From an uncultured Paenibacillaceae bacterium (GTDB taxonomy: Bacteria; Bacillota; Bacilli; Paenibacillales; K13): a stretch of DNA of 64,000 nucleotides. The stretch spans positions 62,001 through 126,000 of the forward strand of contig CAJXLT010000001.1 in the NCBI GenBank assembly GCA_913056365.1, given 5' to 3'. Under the pieces are notes generated by a model. The model was given only the letters and a program-made list of their open reading frames with translations, was not told the origin of the DNA and searched no databases. Each line of letters begins with the position of its first letter. Position 1 is the first letter of the stretch. The translations under genes and the position numbers were made by a program. Positions 2,971 to 15,231 of this stretch are shown one piece after another.

Positions 2971-2979
2971 TGCTATAAT
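2971..2979 (+). promoter_or_regulatory. Extended -10 element for the cyclase gene
   Basis: TGCTATAAT is a perfect extended -10 (TGnTATAAT). The start site near 2986 excludes an earlier start at 2957 and supports the ATG at 3044. Confidence 0.5.
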
Positions 2980-3043
2980 TATGAAAGAAGTAGGCAAAAA
3001 GTTATATATGGCACACACAATGTGTGACATTGGGAGCGATGCA

Positions 3044-4846
3044 ATGAAGAAGAATATTCGTAAATATATTGTATATGGCAATTCCCTCGTCGTCTTGCTC
3101 TGTTTCTTCATGTTCATCTTCCAAGTGTTCCTCACCTTGGAGCGATCCTTATATGAATATGATCTGAAACAGACCGCAACGCATGCGCCGCACGAGGATA
3201 TTGTTGTGATCGGAATCGACGAGCATTCGCTGCAAGCGTTGGGCAGCTACCCTTGGGACAGGCAAATCTACATGCCGTTGCTGGATATGCTGAACGCGGA
3301 AGAAGCACGGCCAACTGCAATTGCGTTCGATATTCTGTTCACTTCAGCAAGTAACCCCGAGAGTGATGCGGCATTGGCATCTACGATGGCAGCATATGAC
3401 AACATTATTATGCCGTCCTATGCGAATATCGAAGATGAATTTAGCCGGGAAGCGGTATCGTTCGGTGAAGACGGGGCGCTGCAAGCGGACAATTGGACGC
3501 ATCCGATTCAACCTTTCGCAGAAGTTACGGAACGGGCTCACATTAATGCCAGAATGGATTCGGACGGTGTCATTCGCCGCAATTGGCTACAAATTAACAC
3601 AAGTGACGGCACACCGATATATTCGATGGCTTACAAGATGGCACAGATGGGCGGCGTTCCGGTCGCAAGCTATCTGGATCGCAATGCTCACAAGGAAATT
3701 CTGATTGATTTCCAAGCCACCTCGAACGATTTCCTGCATGTGCCGTTCGTGTCTGTTCTGAACGGTGAAGTACCTCTGGACATATTCAAGGACCGCTATG
3801 TGTTCATCGGTTTCACTGCTGTCGGGTATGATACGGGGCAAACTGCGATAGAGCAGGAGATGAAGCTCGTCTATGCCCATGCCAACATCTTAAATCAACT
3901 CTTATCACAGACGTACATAAGTGAAGCGCCGAACTTGTATGCAACCGTTTCGATTGTTGCAATGATTTTGCTGGCGCTGTGGTTTACATGGCGATTCAAG
4001 ACTTTGCAGAGTGTACTCATCTTCGTCAGTGTGGCTGCTGCCATACTGATCGGCCAATATTATATTTTCAAGCACGGCGGTATTTATATAGATTCGGTGA
4101 ATCCGCTGGCTGCGCTGAGCTTCACTTATCTATACAATGTGTCAATCAAAGCCTACTTTGAAGCACGTCAGCGAAGCTTTATTACGAAACAATTCGGGCG
4201 CTATATCTCGCCTGATCTCGTTAAGGAAATTGCGCGAAGTGATCAGGAGATTCAATTGGGCGGCATTAACAAGGAATTGTCTGTACTATTTCTAGACGTC
4301 CGAGGATTCACGACGCTGTCTGAACGAATGAAGCCTGAAGAGGTCGTCGGATTTCTGAATATGATGTTCGACTTGATTACGAGCCAAGCACTAGATAATC
4401 ATGGAACGATAGATAAATTTATTGGTGATGCTGCGATGATTCTATACAATGCTCCGTTGGATGTGCCGCATCATGAGTACTATGCAGTCAAGACAGCGTA
4501 TGACATACAGGAAGGCATGAAGCGGGTGCGCGATGAAATCGAGGAGAGATTCGGCGCGACAATCAGTGTGGGCATAGGTATCAATACCGGTGAAGTCGTC
4601 GTAGGCAACATCGGTTCCTTCTTGCGTGTGGACTATACGGCTATCGGCGACAATGTCAACGTTGCCGCGAGAATTGAGTCGAATACGACAGCGAATCAGG
4701 TGCTTGTCTCAGAAGAGACCTATGAGCGTACGAAGGACTATTTCACGTATGAATGTGTCGGCGAGCGTATGATGAAGGGCAAGACAGTCGCTGTTAAGCT
4801 GTATGAGGTGACGGGGATTAAGAAGATATTGGAATTGTCGGACTGA
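3044..4846 (+). CDS. Membrane class III nucleotide cyclase with extracytoplasmic CHASE2 sensor
   Basis: About 600 residues from this start. A membrane segment near residues 11-30 (YIVYGNSLVVLLCFFMFIF) is followed by a CHASE2 sensor of roughly 260 residues (IVVIGIDEHSLQALGSYPWDR, AIAFDILF, FKDRYVFIGFTAVG). Two or three membrane helices come next, then a class III cyclase domain near 400-590. Both metal aspartates are present (LFLDVRGFT and FIGDAAM), and so are the substrate-selecting Lys and Asp (IDKFIGD, YTAIGDNVNVAAR) and the transition-state Arg/Asn region. These residues favour ATP over GTP, so the likely product is cAMP. The start chosen is the ATG behind GGGAGCG; an earlier in-frame start would lie upstream of the inferred transcription start. 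The FecR-domain gene follows 95 bases later, and CHASE2 proteins and FecR-domain proteins are known neighbours in other phyla. Confidence 0.88.
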   Translation: MKKNIRKYIVYGNSLVVLLCFFMFIFQVFLTLERSLYEYDLKQTATHAPHEDIVVIGIDEHSLQALGSYPWDRQIYMPLLDMLNAEEARPTAIAFDILFTSASNPESDAALASTMAAYDNIIMPSYANIEDEFSREAVSFGEDGALQADNWTHPIQPFAEVTERAHINARMDSDGVIRRNWLQINTSDGTPIYSMAYKMAQMGGVPVASYLDRNAHKEILIDFQATSNDFLHVPFVSVLNGEVPLDIFKDRYVFIGFTAVGYDTGQTAIEQEMKLVYAHANILNQLLSQTYISEAPNLYATVSIVAMILLALWFTWRFKTLQSVLIFVSVAAAILIGQYYIFKHGGIYIDSVNPLAALSFTYLYNVSIKAYFEARQRSFITKQFGRYISPDLVKEIARSDQEIQLGGINKELSVLFLDVRGFTTLSERMKPEEVVGFLNMMFDLITSQALDNHGTIDKFIGDAAMILYNAPLDVPHHEYYAVKTAYDIQEGMKRVRDEIEERFGATISVGIGINTGEVVVGNIGSFLRVDYTAIGDNVNVAARIESNTTANQVLVSEETYERTKDYFTYECVGERMMKGKTVAVKLYEVTGIKKILELSD

Positions 4847-4941
4847 ACAACTTCATAGTTGGATACAGTGCGTGACCAATAATTGAGGAACAATATTCGA
4901 ATGGGCAAGTAATAATTCTACATGAAGGAGTTTGAGGCAGA

Positions 4942-7900
4942 ATGACCGGAATCAAGATGAAACGCTGGATGTCGGCACTAGTTAGTGTCGTTATGCTGTA
5001 CGGCTTGATCGCAGGCGCGTTCGCTCCGCAAGCGGAAGCGGCGACGGCGCGGATTGCCAAGATCATCAGTGTCACGGGTGATGTGCAAATTACGAAATCC
5101 GGCGGTACCAAACCGTACAAGGCTTTCAAGGGCTTGTACTTGAACCAAGGGGATCACATCTCCACTGGGTCTGACAGTAGTATCATCCTAGAGGTTGAGG
5201 ACCGCAAGGATGAGGTAACGGTAGGATCGAATTCAGAGATGTATGTGTCCCAGTTGAAGGAAGACAACGGAAGCAAGAACACTAGCTTCAAAGTGTGGTC
5301 CGGTTCCGTATGGACCAAGGCTTCCACACTAGTAGATACAGAGGATACATTCGAGGTAGAGACACCGACAGCGGTCATGGGTGTTCGCGGTACGAACTTC
5401 GCTATTACAGTCCAACCGACATATGGAGATACTAGCATATTCGTAGCTTCTGGTATCGTCCAGGCTAATCATCCTAACACGCTTATTCCCCCCGGGGAGA
5501 ATAGTTCGAATGGGAATAATGTGACGCCAATTTCGGATCCCCCAGTTGTCGTATATCCGACGATGCAGGGCAATCTGTATCCGAATGCGAACATGGACAA
5601 CACAGATTCGAATACGGGCTTTATCAATTTCGATCAGTTCGCTGAGAATACAGATCCTTCGATCATTGAAGCATTGATTCGCAACAAAGCTGCCGCAGAT
5701 CAAGAGAATCAACAATATCTGGACGATCTTCCGCAGAACTCAGATCAAGCACCGCCGGATCTGAATATTAATAATGATGAACAATTGGAAGACTACAAGG
5801 ATAATGTGCAAAATTTGATTGGCAATATCGTAAAGAATTCTATCAATAATGGCAAAATAAACGAACAAGAAGTAGAGAAAATCATCAATAAGGTTGAGCG
5901 TGAGACGAATCGTGATGTAGATATTAATTATAAGAATCCGCCGGAACCGAAGTTGACCGACGAGCAACAGGTTAGACAAGATCGTATGTTGGAAGCAGAG
6001 CGCCTCCGCCGGCAGCAGCAGGAACAGCAGCAGCGGCAGCGCGAGCAGCAGCGTGAGCAGCACGCTGAGTTGCTCGATCGCATTAAACAGTCCGCGGAAG
6101 AGCAGAGACGGCAGAATGAACAACAGGCCAACCAAAAGCAACAAGAAGCGATAGATCGATACAAAAACCAGCTTACCGAGGAGCAAAGAAGACAGTTCGA
6201 AGAAAGACGTAATAATCTGCAAGAGAATGAACGTCGTTCCGAACAAACTCCGCCAACAGGGGGCTCCGGCGGCTCTGGAGGATCGGGCGGTTCGGACAAT
6301 GGATCGACTGGAACAGAGTTGAATGGAACAGGCACTTATGCGGGTTCTGTTACAGCTACAGTCCGTACTGGGAATGCGACCTTCGGTCCGGAATCGGGAA
6401 CTCGCACGATCGAAGGCAATGTCACCTTGACGGGCAGCACTTCCGGTGCAATCACCTTACGCAATGTGGTTGTTACGGGTGATGTGCAGGTGAATACGGG
6501 GAATGCCACTGTCGCCTTACAAGATTCTGTAACGGTGGAAGGGTCTACGGTTATTCAAGATGTCAGCACCCAAACATTCGACAGTCAGGCGATGCACGGT
6601 GATAAGATAGTCGTGAGTGACAACAACGGTGTCAGCTTGCGATTGAGCGGATCGGCCAGCCATGCGAAGGTGGAAGTAACAGGTGACGGTGAAGTGACGT
6701 TATATGGGGATTACCACCACATGGTGCTTGTTCAGGCAGCAGCCAAGCTCATCGTTGGTGCTGATGCGCATATCAAGAAGCTAGACATTCGCCATAGCGA
6801 TGCTCAGTTGGTGAATGAAGGCTGGATTGGGAAAATTGTAGGCGCTTCTGAGCTAGAATTGCATGAATCTGTCGTGTTGGAGATCGAGAAGATCATCCAA
6901 CGCCATGTAGACGCTGTGAATGCAGCGGAATCACCGGAACAGATGGTTGAAGCGCTGTATCAGATAGGATATTCGCAGTTATCGAATGATGTTGTTGCCT
7001 ATCTATTCGAGCTTCGTCCTGTAGCAGGATTCGATACGATCGGACAAATTACAGCAGCTGTTGATCAAGCTATCGCACATACGAATGCAGATCCTTACGT
7101 CTTTTATAAAGGTCCGTCCCCTTTGGTAGATGTCTCTTCGATTGAAGTTGAGGTAAGCGGAGCGGATGAACTGTATGTATTGAATATGTCAGCTTTACTA
7201 GAAGGACCGTCTCCGGTCATGTACCCGTCAGCTGATCAGTTTGAACAGCTCGTAGCTGCAGGTCATGCGTTGAAATTTCCTGTGTCCATAGCAGAACCGA
7301 CTATGGAGTTGGATTTGACGCCAATCACGGAACTAATGCCGTATTCAGAGAAATCCTTACTGTTATACGCTATCCGAGATGATCAAGTATCCCAACCTAC
7401 ACGGCCGATTATTGCGCCAGGCTTGGAAACGACGTATGAAACGATTAGCGGCACTGTTACATTAGCAGAACCAGCGCCTGAAGACGGGCTTAACATTATG
7501 GTGTTCGGCCAGTATTTGAATGTGGAACTCGTATTGCCAGAACCTCCTATTATGGATGCGGTGCACGCGCCTTTTATTGAGAAATATACATTCGTGCATA
7601 TTGCACCAGGGGAAACAACAGCATCCTATGAGATGCAAGTGAGTCATAATGATACTTATGCTGTCGGTTACGCGATCATCTCGGAATTGCCGAGCGAGCA
7701 TACATGGCTTAGACAAGCTTTCGCAGGATACCAAGGAGAGATGGTGTCTTATCCATCCGATGCGCGTGAGATAGAGATTGTCGTAGAAGTTGGCGGGCAG
7801 GCAGACCTGACGATCGAGCATGGAACGCTTGTTACCGGTACTGTACAAGTAGATCCGAGCAAGCTTGACGGTAATGAAACGGTGTATGTATTAGTGGAGA

Positions 7901-9297
7901 ATGAACAAGGACTTGCAGGATATACAACGGTGCCCGTATCGGGAACAGATCCAGAACCGTTCACGGCCATTGTTCCAGAGGGTGAGACTTATCTCGTTCA
8001 CTACTTCCTAGAGGATGAATATGTGTTCAAGAACACGTATTATTATGTGGAGAATGGCTTGTATACGCGAGCATTGGAAGACGCTTCATGGCTTACACTT
8101 GGGGATAGTATCGAATTGAATGTGCCGGCTGACGCTATCGGACAAGTGTCGGTATCTGACGCGCACACATTAGGATTCGCTGTCACGTGGGAGCCTGTAG
8201 CAAATGCTGTTAATTATGACTTTAGGTTCATGGATGATCAAGGCATGCCATATGTTTCATTGCCAGATTTCGTGAGTGCTGAACTAGCAGCAGCGAACAA
8301 TTATACGTACTATCCAGATATGGTATTCAGTTTAATGGGTTCACTCGGACTCGAACCGAACCGAACTTATACGTTGGCTGTCTCAGCATATCCAGAGGGA
8401 AGTTGGGAACCGATGGCTGTTGGAATAAGCAGCTTTACGACGGGTGATCAGCTGCATGACAGACCGTATGTTCTCGGTTCTACTCCGTCATCGCATGCCC
8501 ATGCTATTCAGACTGATGCTGGAATTACGCTTAAGTTCAATGAATCCGTGAACGTGGACAATGTGACGGATAGCGTCGTACTGCTTCGAGGCCAGAGTCG
8601 GGATATCTCGTACATGGAGCCGGTCGAAAATATAGGTATCACTGCAAATACGCAAGGTGATGGAGCGGTCACTGTTCACTTCGATCAAGAGCTGGATTCG
8701 AATTCGTATTACGCCCTGCAACTGAAACAAGGCTTCGTTCGGAACCAATACGGACTCCCGAATGAGGGGTATGAATTGTCATTCCATACAGCTGAAACGA
8801 ATGAATCAGTCCCGTCTGTTACCTCCGTTGTCTATGAAGACAGCATGTACGTAGATTGGGAAGAGGTAGAACTAGCGAGCCATTATGAGGTTTGGGTTAA
8901 CGGAGAGTTCCAAGATTCCGTTATCGAACAGACGAATGTGAATCTGCAAGGCATATATGCAACGCAAGAGCTTGCTGTTCTAGTTCGGGCAACGAATGGA
9001 CAGTCTGTCATTGCCGAGAGTGAGATCTATCCGGAATTCCAAGCAGTCCCGTATTCCAATGCTATTGCAGGCTATTATGATGGTTTCATTCTTTACTTTG
9101 ACTTCGAGCCTGTAGAAGGTGCCGCAAGCTACGTTGTATATAATGGCGATTACCTGTATGGTTCTGGATACGAACCAGGCAACGTTCAGGTGAACGGGGC
9201 AGGCGATGTCACGATCGTTGCTTTGGACGAGAATGGGCAAGTGATTGCTAGATCTTTGATCCGTTATGAACTTGACGGTCCCATATTCGGCTTTTGA
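4942..9297 (+). CDS. Giant secreted FecR-domain protein with coiled coil and Ig-like/SbsA-type domains
   Basis: 1451 residues. A signal peptide (about 1-33, ending AEA) precedes a FecR domain at about 40-165 (GDVQITKSGG, VWSGSVWTKAS, ETPTAVMGVRGTNF). An Asn/Asp-rich region and a Gln/Arg/Glu-rich probable coiled coil (about 335-430) follow, then a Gly-Gly-Ser linker (about 437-450) and beta-rich repeats (about 455-650, GNVTLTGSTSGAITLRNVVV). Long beta-sandwich-like regions come next, including an Ig-like SbsA/Big_5-type module at about 1173-1286. No LPxTG or hydrophobic C-terminal anchor is visible, so it is probably released or held by wall binding. FecR domains act outside the membrane in sensing. 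Its position between the CHASE2 cyclase and a second secreted protein suggests a ligand or scaffold for that sensor, which is inference. GAAGGAG precedes the ATG at 4942; the ATG at 4957 is an alternative. Confidence 0.82.
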   Translation: MTGIKMKRWMSALVSVVMLYGLIAGAFAPQAEAATARIAKIISVTGDVQITKSGGTKPYKAFKGLYLNQGDHISTGSDSSIILEVEDRKDEVTVGSNSEMYVSQLKEDNGSKNTSFKVWSGSVWTKASTLVDTEDTFEVETPTAVMGVRGTNFAITVQPTYGDTSIFVASGIVQANHPNTLIPPGENSSNGNNVTPISDPPVVVYPTMQGNLYPNANMDNTDSNTGFINFDQFAENTDPSIIEALIRNKAAADQENQQYLDDLPQNSDQAPPDLNINNDEQLEDYKDNVQNLIGNIVKNSINNGKINEQEVEKIINKVERETNRDVDINYKNPPEPKLTDEQQVRQDRMLEAERLRRQQQEQQQRQREQQREQHAELLDRIKQSAEEQRRQNEQQANQKQQEAIDRYKNQLTEEQRRQFEERRNNLQENERRSEQTPPTGGSGGSGGSGGSDNGSTGTELNGTGTYAGSVTATVRTGNATFGPESGTRTIEGNVTLTGSTSGAITLRNVVVTGDVQVNTGNATVALQDSVTVEGSTVIQDVSTQTFDSQAMHGDKIVVSDNNGVSLRLSGSASHAKVEVTGDGEVTLYGDYHHMVLVQAAAKLIVGADAHIKKLDIRHSDAQLVNEGWIGKIVGASELELHESVVLEIEKIIQRHVDAVNAAESPEQMVEALYQIGYSQLSNDVVAYLFELRPVAGFDTIGQITAAVDQAIAHTNADPYVFYKGPSPLVDVSSIEVEVSGADELYVLNMSALLEGPSPVMYPSADQFEQLVAAGHALKFPVSIAEPTMELDLTPITELMPYSEKSLLLYAIRDDQVSQPTRPIIAPGLETTYETISGTVTLAEPAPEDGLNIMVFGQYLNVELVLPEPPIMDAVHAPFIEKYTFVHIAPGETTASYEMQVSHNDTYAVGYAIISELPSEHTWLRQAFAGYQGEMVSYPSDAREIEIVVEVGGQADLTIEHGTLVTGTVQVDPSKLDGNETVYVLVENEQGLAGYTTVPVSGTDPEPFTAIVPEGETYLVHYFLEDEYVFKNTYYYVENGLYTRALEDASWLTLGDSIELNVPADAIGQVSVSDAHTLGFAVTWEPVANAVNYDFRFMDDQGMPYVSLPDFVSAELAAANNYTYYPDMVFSLMGSLGLEPNRTYTLAVSAYPEGSWEPMAVGISSFTTGDQLHDRPYVLGSTPSSHAHAIQTDAGITLKFNESVNVDNVTDSVVLLRGQSRDISYMEPVENIGITANTQGDGAVTVHFDQELDSNSYYALQLKQGFVRNQYGLPNEGYELSFHTAETNESVPSVTSVVYEDSMYVDWEEVELASHYEVWVNGEFQDSVIEQTNVNLQGIYATQELAVLVRATNGQSVIAESEIYPEFQAVPYSNAIAGYYDGFILYFDFEPVEGAASYVVYNGDYLYGSGYEPGNVQVNGAGDVTIVALDENGQVIARSLIRYELDGPIFGF

Positions 9298-9348
9298 TCT
9301 AATTCTTCAGGCAACAGCTTAATTACTGAATAATAAAGGAGCTATTCC

Positions 9349-10941
9349 ATGCGAAAGATGCAATCGAAGATTATTGTGAGTATGCTGTCATTATCCTTAT
9401 GCTTCCCCTCAGTCCTGCTTGCTGCTTCCCCGTCAGAAGGAGTACGCGGGAACAGTGGCGACTTATTGTCGCAAGTAGACATCGTTGCTGGAACGAGCGA
9501 ATTCGGGGGAGAGGACGGAGCGGCTTCAGCTGCTTCGTTCCGCAACCCGGCGAGTGTAGCGGTCTCACCGGACGGGACGATCTACATCGCGGATACGGAC
9601 AACCAGCTTATTCGCGAGCTGGAGGATGGTACGGTAGACACCCTGGCGGGCAATACATTGCTAGTGGATGAGAAGGGCTTCCCCGTCGGGGCGCTTGTGG
9701 ATGGAATCGGTTCGGATTCATCCTTCTCCACCCCTACTGGGTTAGATGTAGATGGGCAAGGGAACATCTATGTTGCGGATACAGACAATCATGCGATTCG
9801 TAAAATTACACCGAGCGGAACCGTCACGACATTGGCAGGCAACGGTCTGTTAGGCGAGGAAGACGGCGAAGGCGAATCAGCTACATTCTATTCGCCGACT
9901 GATGTAGCGGTTACGGCTGAAGGTGTTGTCTATGTAGCGGACACTCTGAATCATACGATTCGCCGAATTGCGCCAGACGGTGGAGTGACGACGCTTAATG
10001 CGCAAGCAGAGCGTGCGATAGAATGGGCGGAAGGCTATGTGGAATCTGCGGGGAATTATAAAGATGGGAAGCTCACAGAGGCGCAGTTCAACGAACCTTC
10101 CGGATTGGCATTAGATGAGAAGGGCAACCTGTACGTCAGCGATACAGGCAATCACTTGATTCGCTACATTGATCTGCAAGCACAAACAGTCACTACCGTA
10201 GCAGGTATGGTGAAGGATTCCATGTACGAAGACGGTGAGCCGTATGCGGCAGGCGGATATGTGAATGGTGATGCGCAGCAGGCGCAATTTAATTCTCCGC
10301 AAGGGATCGCCGTGACGAGTGACGGAGGACTTGTCATTGCCGATACACTTAATCATGCCGTGCGTTATCTGAATGAGGGTCAAGTCATGACACTCGCTGG
10401 TGCAGCAGAGGAACAGTATGGCGATCAGGTTGGCTTGAACGGTATGAATCGCCTGCATGCGCCAAGTGATGTTGCTGTCCGTCAAGATGGAGGTATTCTA
10501 ATTGCAGACAGCTACAATAACAGGATCAAGCTATGGACTGTGTACACGCATCCAGCAGGCGTACAAGCAGACGGCAGCATTCATGTAGTTGTGAACGGAC
10601 AGTTGGTAAGCTTCGACGCACAGCCGGAGATCGCCAATGCGCGCACGATGGTGCCTGTTCGCTTCATCGCCGAAGCACTCGGCTATGATGTGGCATTCGA
10701 CAACGCAACTGTGAAGATAAGCGAGAATGAGCATTCTGTCGCTATGCAACTGGATGAGACGATTCTCACTATCGAGGCGTCAGGTGAAGAGCCTGTAAGT
10801 CGCTTCATGGATACCGCACCTTATGTGAAGGAAGGCCGAGCTTACGTGCCGCTGCGCTTCTTCAGCGAACAATTCGGCAAGGACGTGCAGTGGGATGCAT
10901 CGACGCGAACGGTCATCTTGCGGGATCAAACTATGAACTAA
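9349..10941 (+). CDS. Secreted NHL-repeat protein with C-terminal stalk (copper amine oxidase N-like) domain
   Basis: 530 residues. A signal peptide (about 1-25) is followed by at least five NHL beta-propeller repeats (about 45-395). These show the recurring pattern 'FxxPxGVAVxxDGxIYIADTxNHxIRxI', as in ATFYSPTDVAVTAEGVVYVAD and FNSPQGIAVTSDGGLVIAD. A two-part stalk domain of the Cu_amine_oxidN1 type occupies about 405-525 (MVPVRFIAEALGYDVAFD, YVPLRFFSEQFGKDVQWD), a surface module very common in Paenibacillaceae. Propeller plus stalk suggests a surface binding protein, not an enzyme. It begins 51 bases after the FecR-domain gene behind AAAGGAGC, and a strong hairpin follows, so it probably closes the operon begun by the cyclase. 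Confidence 0.85.
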   Translation: MRKMQSKIIVSMLSLSLCFPSVLLAASPSEGVRGNSGDLLSQVDIVAGTSEFGGEDGAASAASFRNPASVAVSPDGTIYIADTDNQLIRELEDGTVDTLAGNTLLVDEKGFPVGALVDGIGSDSSFSTPTGLDVDGQGNIYVADTDNHAIRKITPSGTVTTLAGNGLLGEEDGEGESATFYSPTDVAVTAEGVVYVADTLNHTIRRIAPDGGVTTLNAQAERAIEWAEGYVESAGNYKDGKLTEAQFNEPSGLALDEKGNLYVSDTGNHLIRYIDLQAQTVTTVAGMVKDSMYEDGEPYAAGGYVNGDAQQAQFNSPQGIAVTSDGGLVIADTLNHAVRYLNEGQVMTLAGAAEEQYGDQVGLNGMNRLHAPSDVAVRQDGGILIADSYNNRIKLWTVYTHPAGVQADGSIHVVVNGQLVSFDAQPEIANARTMVPVRFIAEALGYDVAFDNATVKISENEHSVAMQLDETILTIEASGEEPVSRFMDTAPYVKEGRAYVPLRFFSEQFGKDVQWDASTRTVILRDQTMN

Positions 10942-10958
10942 TTGCTCGCACTACGAAT

Positions 10959-11000
10959 AGGAGCTGCTCGAAGTCACTTGTGACTTCAAGCAGCTCCTTT
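10959..11000 (+). terminator. Strong hairpin ending the cyclase-FecR-NHL unit
   Basis: GGAGCTGCTCGAAGTCA and TGACTTCAAGCAGCTCC form a 17-bp stem with a four-base loop. The T-run is short (TTTGGTTATT). It may serve both strands, since the small minus-strand gene at 11030 ends nearby. Confidence 0.65.
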
Positions 11001-11029
11001 GGTTATTGTCGCATCCAATAAGCACGATG

Positions 11030-11164
11030 TTAGTCTAGAATGAGCAACACAGATAACGCTATGACAACAACTGCGAAGATCGAAGCAATCCACACGATGG
11101 CTCTCGTATGCACTTGTTCCTGCTGCTGTCTGCGTTCGAAGTAGGTTGGTTTACGCTTGGCCAT
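11030..11164 (-). CDS. Small single-pass membrane protein, 44 residues
   Basis: ATG at 11164 behind AAAGGGA. The product opens with a basic, Gln-rich stretch (MAKRKPTYFERRQQQEQ) and continues into one hydrophobic helix (AIVWIASIFAVVVIALSVLLIL) ending with Asp. The positive-inside rule predicts a cytoplasmic N terminus. No family is recognised and the function is unknown. The clean start signal, the basic-then-hydrophobic layout and the otherwise empty 400-bp gap argue that it is real. Confidence 0.65.
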   Translation of the reverse strand: MAKRKPTYFERRQQQEQVHTRAIVWIASIFAVVVIALSVLLILD

Positions 11165-11355
11165 AGCTATCTTCCCTTTCGTAACAGAATAACTTTACCA
11201 TAATGGAAACGCCTTCATTCTGTCAATGTCTATTCATCTGAGTTGAATATCACTTCCTTTTTCCATGCGTTTCCGATAAACTGACAGGTAGGGGTATGCA
11301 TGAAGAGCGGAACAAGTGAAGTTGTTGTACGCATGAGAAAGAGAGGAATACCAAT

Positions 11356-12459
11356 ATGATCTACCGTCACGTGGCCAAGCCGCTACTATTCAAGCTGCAG
11401 CCAGAAACTGCGCATCATCTTGTGATTAGAAGCTTGAAGACAGTCAGTCAGGTGCCCGGCATTGTGCCCATGCTGGCTCAGACGTTTCGTACGAAGAATG
11501 AACCAAGTCTGACCGTTGAGCAATTCGGATTGACGTTCGACTGTCCGATAGGCTTGGCAGCTGGTTTGGACAAAAATGCAGAAGCAGTACGTGGATTTTC
11601 CGCGCTTGGCTTCGGCTTCATGGAAGTCGGGACTGTAACGCCTAAGGCACAACCAGGCAATGAGAAGCCGCGAAGCTTCCGCCTGCCGTCGGATGAAGCA
11701 TTAATTAATCGTATGGGCTTCAACAATGAAGGGGCGGAAGCGATGGCCGGACGATTAAGCCGGCTTGGCAAGCGCAGTATTCCGATTGCGGTCAATATAG
11801 GCAAGAACAAGGTTACACCGAACGAACAGGCGCCTGAAGACTATCGCGCATGTATTCGTGCGCTATATCCATACGGGGATTTCTTCGTCGTGAATATTAG
11901 CTCGCCGAATACGCCGGGATTGCGCAGCTTGCAGCACGGGGAAGAGTTGTTGCATCTGCTTGAGGCCGTACAGGATGAGATGCGGAAGCAGCATCTTGCA
12001 CTTGGCTATACGACTGACGTCAAGCCGGTATTAGTGAAGATTGCGCCGGACCTGGAGCTTGATGAGCTCGGCTCTATTCTGGAGACGATTATGTCAAGCG
12101 GTGTTGCAGGACTCATTGCAACGAATACAACCTTATCCAGAGAGGGCTTGCAGCACAGCAATAGGCAAGAAGCAGGCGGATTAAGCGGCAAGCCGTTGAA
12201 GGACAAGTCAACTTCAATTATTCGCGAAGCTTGGCGGTTGACAGATGGAAGGCTTCCGATTATAGGTTCGGGCGGTATTTTTACAGCGGCAGACGCATAT
12301 GAGAAAATACGAGCAGGCGCTTCGTTGATAGAAGTCTATACAGCATTCGTCTATCATGGCCCCGGCTTGATCAAGCAGTTGAATCGGGAGCTCGCGACGC
12401 TGTTGAAGCAGGACGGACTGTCATCGATCCATGAAGCGATCGGTGCAGACCATCGTTAA
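11356..12459 (+). CDS. pyrD: Dihydroorotate dehydrogenase, quinone-linked (class 2)
   Basis: 367 residues. An amphipathic N-terminal membrane-association segment (YRHVAKPLLFKLQPETAHHL) is followed by the FMN-binding barrel: GLAAGLDKNAEAV, EVGTVTPKAQPGN and NRMGFNNEG. VVNISSPNTPGLRSL carries the catalytic Ser of class 2 enzymes, where class 1 enzymes use Cys, and LIATNTT and GSGGIFTAADAYEKI complete the phosphate site. It oxidises dihydroorotate to orotate at the membrane with quinone as acceptor, in pyrimidine synthesis. It stands apart from any pyr operon here. AGAGAGGAA precedes the ATG. Bacillus itself uses the class 1B enzyme, so the class 2 form is a useful lineage marker. Confidence 0.95.
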   Translation: MIYRHVAKPLLFKLQPETAHHLVIRSLKTVSQVPGIVPMLAQTFRTKNEPSLTVEQFGLTFDCPIGLAAGLDKNAEAVRGFSALGFGFMEVGTVTPKAQPGNEKPRSFRLPSDEALINRMGFNNEGAEAMAGRLSRLGKRSIPIAVNIGKNKVTPNEQAPEDYRACIRALYPYGDFFVVNISSPNTPGLRSLQHGEELLHLLEAVQDEMRKQHLALGYTTDVKPVLVKIAPDLELDELGSILETIMSSGVAGLIATNTTLSREGLQHSNRQEAGGLSGKPLKDKSTSIIREAWRLTDGRLPIIGSGGIFTAADAYEKIRAGASLIEVYTAFVYHGPGLIKQLNRELATLLKQDGLSSIHEAIGADHR

Positions 12460-13899: not shown

Positions 13900-14403
13900 T
13901 TATTCACCTAGATGGCTTTCGAACCAAGCCTTCGCCTGTTCGGGCGAGATCGTGTGTGCAGCATCTGAAATTTCACCGTCTAACGTATCGACACGCTCAC
14001 CGTTTTCGTAATAGACGATAGTTGGTGTGGCTGTCACGCCGTACTTCTCCCAACCGAATGTATATTCACTCAAGTTGTATTGATGAATATAGACACCCAG
14101 TTCATCCATAATCGGCATCAAGATCGGTGTTGTTACCTGACAATGCGGGCATGTTGGCTGGAAGTAGTAAACGAAGAACGTTTCCTTGTCCGCCAGCTTT
14201 TGGCTAAGGGCATCTTCTGTGATAATATTTTGATAGTTGGGATCGTCCAGCTGCTCCAGAGTAGGCTGAGACAGTTCGTCAGGACTTACGCCGTACAAGC
14301 GCTCCGCATCACTGGCATAAGTGTTCTTCGAGGCTTGATTAATGTAGAATAGCGCACCGAACAGTACGGCAACAATAGCGAGATAAATCCAAAGCTTCTT
14401 CAA
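13900..14403 (-). CDS. Membrane-anchored thioredoxin-fold protein
   Basis: 167 residues. A single N-terminal anchor (LWIYLAIVAVLFGALFYI) holds an extracytoplasmic thioredoxin domain. The active site is C85-P-H-C88 (YYFQPTCPHCQV) and a cis-Pro loop appears as TATPT. CPHC sites are typical of oxidising or isomerising DsbA/BdbA-like and bacteriocin-transport thioredoxins more than of reducing ones. It probably makes or repairs disulfides outside the membrane; the substrate is unknown. Upstream reads GAAAGGGGGAGAACTTTG before the ATG. Confidence 0.82.
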   Translation of the reverse strand: MKKLWIYLAIVAVLFGALFYINQASKNTYASDAERLYGVSPDELSQPTLEQLDDPNYQNIITEDALSQKLADKETFFVYYFQPTCPHCQVTTPILMPIMDELGVYIHQYNLSEYTFGWEKYGVTATPTIVYYENGERVDTLDGEISDAAHTISPEQAKAWFESHLGE

Positions 14404-14496
14404 AGTTCTCCCCCTTTCTCTATTTGATCATACCTGAATCTATTATAAACGATCCGTGGATTGGAAGAAAGCATGCCTGTCTGGAGGTGGATAAAA

Positions 14497-15231
14497 GTGA
14501 GTAATACGATGCGACTAGACAAGCTTCTTGCACATATGGGAGTCGGTACGCGCAGCGACATTCGCAAGCTCGCCCGGCAAGGACGCATCGCACATAACGG
14601 GATGACAGTCAAGGATTCTGGCAAGCATGTCGATCCCGAGGCTGATCTTATCACGGTAGATGATGAAGCCATCGTGTACAGAGCCTTTATTTATGTGATG
14701 CTGAACAAGCCTGGCGGTGTCGTGTCAGCAACAGAGGACAGGCGCGAACGAACTGTAGTGGATCTGCTCGATGAGCGAATGCGTGTATTCTCGCCGTTCC
14801 CCGTTGGGCGGTTAGACAAGGATACAGAGGGGCTGCTGTTATTGACGAATGACGGTCAGCTTGCTCACGATTTGCTGTCCCCGCGCAAGCACGTAGATAA
14901 GACGTATTATGCAGACATAGACGGTCCTGTCGGCTCGGACATTCAGGAACAGTTCTGTCAGGGGGTGAAGCTGGACGACGGCTATAAGACAATGCCTGCA
15001 ACGCTCAACGTCCTGGCCAATGACGAGAGTGGCGCGAGTATTGAATTGACGATTCAGGAAGGCAAGTTTCATCAAGTGAAGCGGATGTTTGAAGCCGTCG
15101 GTCGCAAGGTGCGCTATCTGAAGCGAATTCGAATGGGCAGCTTGGTGCTGGACGAATCGCTGCCGTCTGGGGCATACCGGGAACTGACAGGTGAAGAGGT
15201 AGAATTGCTGAGACATTATAACCAAGACTAA
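14497..15231 (+). CDS. rRNA pseudouridine synthase, RsuA/RluB family
   Basis: 244 residues from the GTG at 14497, which sits nine bases after GGAGG; the in-frame TTG at 14461 lacks a ribosome site. An S4 RNA-binding domain (MRLDKLLAHMGVGTRSDIRKLARQGRI) is followed by the catalytic core FPVGRLDKDTEGLLLLTND, whose Asp is the nucleophile, and by KTYYADIDG and GKFHQVKRMFEAVG. The enzyme isomerises one uridine of 16S or 23S rRNA; the RsuA-like C terminus suggests 16S but the exact site is not readable from sequence. The HAD phosphatase gene follows 21 bases later. Confidence 0.9.
   Translation: MSNTMRLDKLLAHMGVGTRSDIRKLARQGRIAHNGMTVKDSGKHVDPEADLITVDDEAIVYRAFIYVMLNKPGGVVSATEDRRERTVVDLLDERMRVFSPFPVGRLDKDTEGLLLLTNDGQLAHDLLSPRKHVDKTYYADIDGPVGSDIQEQFCQGVKLDDGYKTMPATLNVLANDESGASIELTIQEGKFHQVKRMFEAVGRKVRYLKRIRMGSLVLDESLPSGAYRELTGEEVELLRHYNQD

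Follow-up and report, generated by a model that had tools for sequence, protein, structure and literature searches.

A CHASE2 adenylate cyclase with exported FecR-domain and NHL proteins as the probable envelope half of a cAMP pathway in Paenibacillales

In the 64,000-nucleotide stretch of DNA from an uncultured Paenibacillaceae bacterium analyzed here (the window, to which all unprefixed coordinates refer), three genes on the forward strand encode a membrane-bound adenylate cyclase with an extracytoplasmic CHASE2 domain, a large exported FecR-domain protein, and an exported NHL β-propeller that carries a C-terminal "stalk" domain. This unit probably forms the membrane and envelope side of a cyclic AMP (cAMP) pathway, in which the FecR and NHL proteins would tune CHASE2 and cAMP would act via a regulator of the CRP family. 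CHASE2 domains occur widely, for the most part with unknown ligands, and cAMP signalling has been little studied in Bacillota. The compact circuit, i.e., one cyclase, a FecR protein, a propeller and a CRP, is predicted from evidence of independent kinds, among it a species in which parts of the circuit have been lost together. It provides a way to learn what CHASE2 senses, and each step is amenable to single deletions.

All three genes were found at their positions, and the unit comprises the following features.

2971..2979, forward strand: extended −10 promoter element TGCTATAAT, recognized from sequence, kept in the sister species and absent from the list produced by a consensus scan.
3044..4846, forward strand: gene 1, CHASE2-type class III adenylate cyclase, 600 residues (PF05226, PF00211, hydropathy and PDB matches).
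3092..3976, forward strand: extracytoplasmic CHASE2 domain of gene 1, residues 17-311 (Pfam).
4274..4789, forward strand: cyclase catalytic domain of gene 1 (Pfam, PDB matches and residue alignment).
4942..9297, forward strand: gene 2, exported FecR-domain protein, 1451 residues (open reading frame (ORF), Pfam and hydropathy).
5152..5460, forward strand: FecR domain of gene 2 (PF04773), residues 71-173 (Pfam, E 4e-10).
5959..6231, forward strand: charged, Q/E/R-rich helical stretch of gene 2, about residues 340-430 (sequence; one long helix in a low-confidence model).
8461..8790, forward strand: Big_5 bacterial Ig-like domain of gene 2, residues 1174-1283 (Pfam, E 4e-10).
9349..10941, forward strand: gene 3, exported NHL β-propeller with a C-terminal Cu_amine_oxidN1 ("stalk") domain, 530 residues (PF01436, E 2.6e-46; PF07833, E 1.9e-31).
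10959..10998, forward strand: closing hairpin, a probable terminator (predicted fold −33.7 kcal/mol; weak T-tract).

The sister-species counterpart of the promoter element is GCATGCTATACTTA, and TGnTAAnAT elements that resemble it are found 5′ of most of the orthologues examined; the automatic scan did not list the element because its −35 region is poor. The intergenic gaps are 95 and 51 bases long, and since neither contains a terminator-like site, the sequence makes it likely that the three genes share one transcript. An earlier reading of this DNA (the initial annotation) had described the unit as bracketed by a promoter-like element, short gaps and a closing hairpin, all of which could be located, with the promoter conserved in the sister species. 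Translation of gene 1 most likely starts at the ATG at 3044, which has a GGGAG sequence 8-9 nucleotides upstream; a longer ORF from a TTG at 2957 was considered and found unsupported.

Gene 1 has the architecture that defines CHASE2-type cyclases, i.e., a CHASE2 domain (PF05226, E 1.5e-42) between membrane segments and a C-terminal class III catalytic domain (PF00211, E 5.1e-28). Hydropathy places the membrane segments at residues 14-32, 298-316 and 318-336; another one lies near 352-384. All elements of the catalytic set are present: the two metal-binding aspartates, the adenine-specifying lysine and threonine, and the transition-state asparagine and arginine (D418, K458, D462, T532, N539 and R543, at codons 4295, 4415, 4427, 4637, 4658 and 4670). 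No variation at these six positions is seen among the 20 cyclases of the order, and almost none in a set of 48 cyclases; the Lys/Thr purine pair K458/T532 is typical of ATP users, and the closest solved structures in the PDB are adenylate cyclases. A membrane cyclase with an external CHASE2 domain and every catalytic residue, as initially described, is thus borne out by the Pfam domains and by the six intact residues. The only other class III domain of the genome, a PF00211 match, lacks the metal-binding aspartates, the purine pair and the Asn/Arg residues; it belongs to a large HAMP-like membrane protein at locus L087 (G000:C3:181435-181896) and retains none of the catalytic residues. Within class III, to which the comparison was confined, gene 1 is the only cyclase of this genome that is likely to be active. 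An AlphaFold model of the cyclase (four sequences) reached a pLDDT (predicted local distance difference test) of 51.5 and was too poor for a fold search.

Linkage and co-inheritance were surveyed in 61 Paenibacillales genomes, including that of the window (G000). CHASE2 is present in 21 of these genomes, while the FecR and NHL-stalk genes occupy identical sets of 24 genomes that contain all 21 with CHASE2; no CHASE2 cyclase was found without FecR in the 61 genomes (co-occurrence by Fisher test, p about 2e-13, with no correction for kinship). The three genes lie together in 17 of the 21 CHASE2 genomes, i.e., in the window and in 16 of the 20 others, a count that takes in locus L024 (genome G043), where the NHL gene lies ~1.6 kb beyond FecR, L029, where NHL precedes FecR, and L030, where the FecR-NHL pair is divergent from the cyclase. 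The divergent arrangement is also seen at L140 and L141; a contig search that used a single protein gave just three loci, each from a named Paenibacillus, and two of the three are divergent. In four genomes (G024, G031, G034 and G037) all genes are kept, with the FecR-NHL pair at the dinB-pyrD site and the cyclase elsewhere. Adjacency in relatives, which had been proposed as a check on the operon, is therefore conserved far above chance, and together with the full set of catalytic residues it lends good support to the proposal of a cAMP-type cyclase operon, at least as a signalling unit predicted from sequence. In genome G048, which has no CHASE2 cyclase, the NHL-stalk and FecR genes are fused into one ORF of 1145 residues (L043:8650-12087). 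This fusion, like the identical distribution of the two genes, argues for joint action of FecR and NHL.

The N-termini of genes 2 and 3 each contain one hydrophobic segment with the hydropathy of an export signal. In gene 2, the signal peptide is followed by the FecR domain, the charged helical stretch, a Gly/Ser linker and a long C-terminal part with the Big_5 domain, which is preceded by an fn3-like stretch that scores below the cut-off. No cytoplasmic anti-sigma domain of the FecIRA type was recognized, as FecR_N was not matched in gene 2 and the N-terminus is a signal peptide. Identity to the sister species of the genus is 87% over the first 150 codons and 38-60% over the rest, which suggests that the FecR domain is constrained while the giant extension is variable; substitution ratios between the two species are relative only, the synonymous sites being near saturation. 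A model of the N-terminal 420 residues (AlphaFold, four sequences; pLDDT 53.9) was likewise too poor for a fold search. At locus L035 of genome G006, three FecR-domain genes (4071-5252, 7782-12215 and 13993-14610) surround one CHASE2 cyclase, and this group is followed by an ORF of 1744 residues that has no Pfam match. Gene 3 encodes a signal peptide and six NHL repeats ahead of the Cu_amine_oxidN1 domain; it falls under the NCBIfam cut-offs of the ScyF and ScyE NHL families (76.6 versus 350 and 50.7 versus 80 bits, respectively).

The pairing of CHASE2 with FecR extends beyond the order. Among 348 Bacillota genomes, 45 contain CHASE2, 44 contain FecR and 38 contain both, i.e., FecR is found in 38 of the 45 CHASE2 genomes versus 6 of the 303 without CHASE2. 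About one in eight of the sampled Bacillota species has a CHASE2 gene, usually with FecR. The neighbours of 29 CHASE2 loci outside the order were also read: the next gene on the same strand is FecR at 21 of these loci, and at 17 of the 29 (Clostridia-type relatives; Pfam was run on examples) a CRP-family gene follows the cyclase and FecR. Of the three-gene unit as originally proposed, the core that the phylum shares consists of the CHASE2 cyclase and FecR; the NHL-stalk gene was for the most part added in this order, and it is the giant C-terminal region of FecR that changes fast. At L115 (7290-8489 and 11746-13605) a fusion of a cyclic-nucleotide (cNMP)-binding domain with a SpoIIE-type phosphatase shares a cluster with one FecR gene and a CHASE2 cyclase gene, possibly as an alternative cAMP output. 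At L113 (6049-8783) FecR follows a 396-residue CHASE2 protein unmatched by the cyclase profile, which may stand for a different type of output or be a short form of CHASE2 protein.

Because a CRP gene follows the cyclase and FecR outside the order and none is found beside the window unit, a partner CRP was predicted elsewhere in the genome. The window genome encodes several cNMP-binding proteins, and the candidate partner (G000:C5:196631-197362) resides on another contig than the unit. It consists of a cNMP-binding domain with cAMP-contact residues and a CRP helix-turn-helix, keeps the GEM..RSAS and TN signature, and has GlxR and M. tuberculosis CRP as its nearest PDB matches. The cAMP-contact positions are GE, R-S and T-N in the candidate and GE, R-T and T-N in GlxR; most orthologues have A-N in place of T-N. 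In a search of the 61 genomes, 20 scored at least 189 bits, with the next match anywhere at 136. The partner group forms one clade among the CRP paralogues of the order (97/87 on the tree), and this clade is present in 20 of the 21 CHASE2 genomes and in none of the 40 CHASE2-negative ones (8, 1, 0 and 21 in the table of CRP versus CHASE2 when collapsed to distinct patterns per genus). The gene is unlinked to the unit in nearly all genomes and adjoins the cyclase operon in G038. This cAMP-type CRP is the likely output of the unit, which the initial annotation had overlooked. In seven genomes (L123, L124, L125, L127, L128, L138 and L023) an HD-GYP-type gene (PF13487) adjoins the CRP, a possible link to cyclic di-GMP. 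The HD-GYP protein was considered as a member of the circuit and rejected, as the family is found in 52 of the 61 genomes and its presence does not track CHASE2.

Genomes G052 and G011 belong to the same genus, and G052 carries both the unit and the CRP. In G011, assembled as a single contig, the sequences that flank the unit in G052 are retained with 85% and 86% identity over about 5.4 and 4.9 kb, but they meet within ~180 bases: the cyclase, FecR and most of the NHL gene are gone, and two short remnants of the NHL end are left. More than 100 kb from this scar, a CRP gene ~90% identical to that of G052 is frameshifted by two one-base deletions. Deletion of the unit and breakage of the unlinked CRP in one lineage are what a single pathway predicts, i.e., joint loss. 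This co-loss is one event; either CRP base could be a sequencing error, while errors at both are less likely.

In the proposed circuit, the CHASE2 cyclase would be anchored in the membrane, the sensor domain facing outwards and the catalytic domain inwards. On the outer side, the FecR protein and the NHL propeller, both exported, would form one complex that contacts CHASE2 and sets the activity of the cyclase. The cyclase would convert ATP to cAMP, which would bind the dedicated CRP (G000:C5:196631-197362) and thereby alter transcription. The sequences themselves establish the domain content, the export signals, the intact catalytic residues, the signature of a cAMP pocket in the CRP, the co-inheritance and the coordinated loss, whereas the FecR-CHASE2 and FecR-NHL contacts, the direction of control, and cAMP as both product and ligand are the predicted parts of this scheme. 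An input role of FecR is ranked above an output role because the two genes remain neighbours in different phyla and with different outputs, a histidine kinase included (PMC5192318). An input role for envelope partners is also favoured by the CHASE2-cyclase/CRP pathway of S. meliloti, where an envelope protein is needed to perceive a plant protein signal (PMC13001267). More tentatively, it is possible, if short of probable, that a wall-spanning FecR protein and the NHL propeller report the state of the wall or surface to CHASE2, with the unlinked CRP responding, and that this represents an ancient and common class of Bacillota signalling that is undescribed there.

Several observations weigh against the proposed circuit. 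The CHASE2 genome G036 has no partner CRP, and the tree leaves the orthology of the CRP group to the Clostridia operon CRPs without resolution. TGTGA-N6-TCACA sites were not found upstream of the window unit or of its CRP; a scan of upstream regions that took in 20 cyclase loci besides the window unit, together with 21 CRP loci (the broken G011 copy included), yielded nothing consistent, with a single good site, at L024. The structure models are of low confidence. Finally, three genomes (G045, G048 and G060) keep FecR and NHL without the cyclase, the two genes being adjoining in G045 and G060, and the pair can therefore do something alone.

This persistence without the cyclase also suits a rather unlikely alternative in which the cyclase senses something else directly through CHASE2, while cAMP and CRP control a wall or surface layer that includes FecR and NHL as outputs or as targets of feedback. 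The large, fast-changing and surface-protein-like C-terminal part of FecR fits such a role, as does SMc02177 of S. meliloti, a FecR-domain protein that the cAMP regulator Clr targets (PMC5498481). However, FecR adjoins CHASE2 across the phylum at any FecR size, a cyclase without FecR is found in none of the 61 genomes, and FecR adjoins CHASE2 histidine kinases in Burkholderia as well (PMC5192318), which suits a dedicated sensor partner. It is improbable that the cyclase is a guanylate cyclase or inactive and that a ligand other than cAMP acts on the CRP: residues do not always reveal the specificity of class III enzymes, but the adenylyl pair K458/T532 and the six catalytic residues are invariant in the order's 20 cyclases, and the cAMP-contact signature that GlxR and M. 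tuberculosis CRP show is kept in the CRP. Common descent of the dinB-pyrD region, where the unit is found at the same site in many genomes, can hardly by itself have kept the genes together without a functional tie, and a synteny-only explanation was rejected. The genes still co-occur where they have been reordered, inverted, relocated or split, the CRP is co-inherited although unlinked in nearly all genomes, and the HD-GYP control family, a neighbour of the CRP in some genomes, does not follow this pattern of presence (52 of 61 genomes).

The predicted circuit resembles several known systems. In Campylobacterota, a CHASE2 adenylate cyclase is clustered with an exported FecR-domain protein, and the two were proposed to belong to one cAMP pathway (PMC9239204). 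That cluster has a cAMP phosphodiesterase and a TPR protein of its own, neither of which is found beside the unit in the window, and an outer-membrane setting, whereas the window unit has the NHL-stalk third gene, the 1451-residue FecR protein, no outer membrane and a co-inherited CRP. The Burkholderia BiofilmReg operon (PMC5192318) likewise combines a CHASE2 sensor with an exported FecR protein (with LysM), but its output is a histidine kinase and a response regulator instead of a cyclase and a CRP; the knockout reported is that of the response regulator gene. The S. meliloti CyaD1/CyaD2/CyaK-Clr-NsrA pathway (PMC13001267, PMC5498481) resembles the predicted circuit in its CHASE2 cyclases, its CRP-family regulator and its dependence on an envelope protein. 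In S. meliloti, however, the envelope partner is an outer-membrane β-barrel, the FecR-domain gene is a Clr target (PMC5498481), and neither paper reports an operon of cyclase and FecR. With FecR of the FecIRA iron-citrate system, gene 2 shares an extracytoplasmic FecR domain, but it has no cytoplasmic anti-sigma part and would be exported whole; a TonB receptor is not expected in a Gram-positive organism.

CHASE2-FecR clusters and CHASE2-cAMP-CRP pathways are thus already known in Proteobacteria and Campylobacterota, and the initial view that the system is undescribed holds for Paenibacillales in the literature searched but not in general, given the published Campylobacterota clusters (PMC9239204). 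No paper describing a Bacillota or Paenibacillales unit was found in that literature, subscription journals being mostly outside it. What is new is the Paenibacillales form with the NHL-stalk and giant FecR proteins, the CHASE2-FecR-CRP operon seen elsewhere in Bacillota, and the partner CRP, which is unlinked and was lost along with the unit in one species.

The genes next to the unit vary. A TPR and L,D-transpeptidase (YkuD) gene lies between the trio and pyrD at L026 (11449-12864), with orthologues at L025 and L028; it was seen after the unit in several genomes and is absent from the window. At L142 an HD-domain gene follows the trio, and such genes adjoin the unit in some relatives only.

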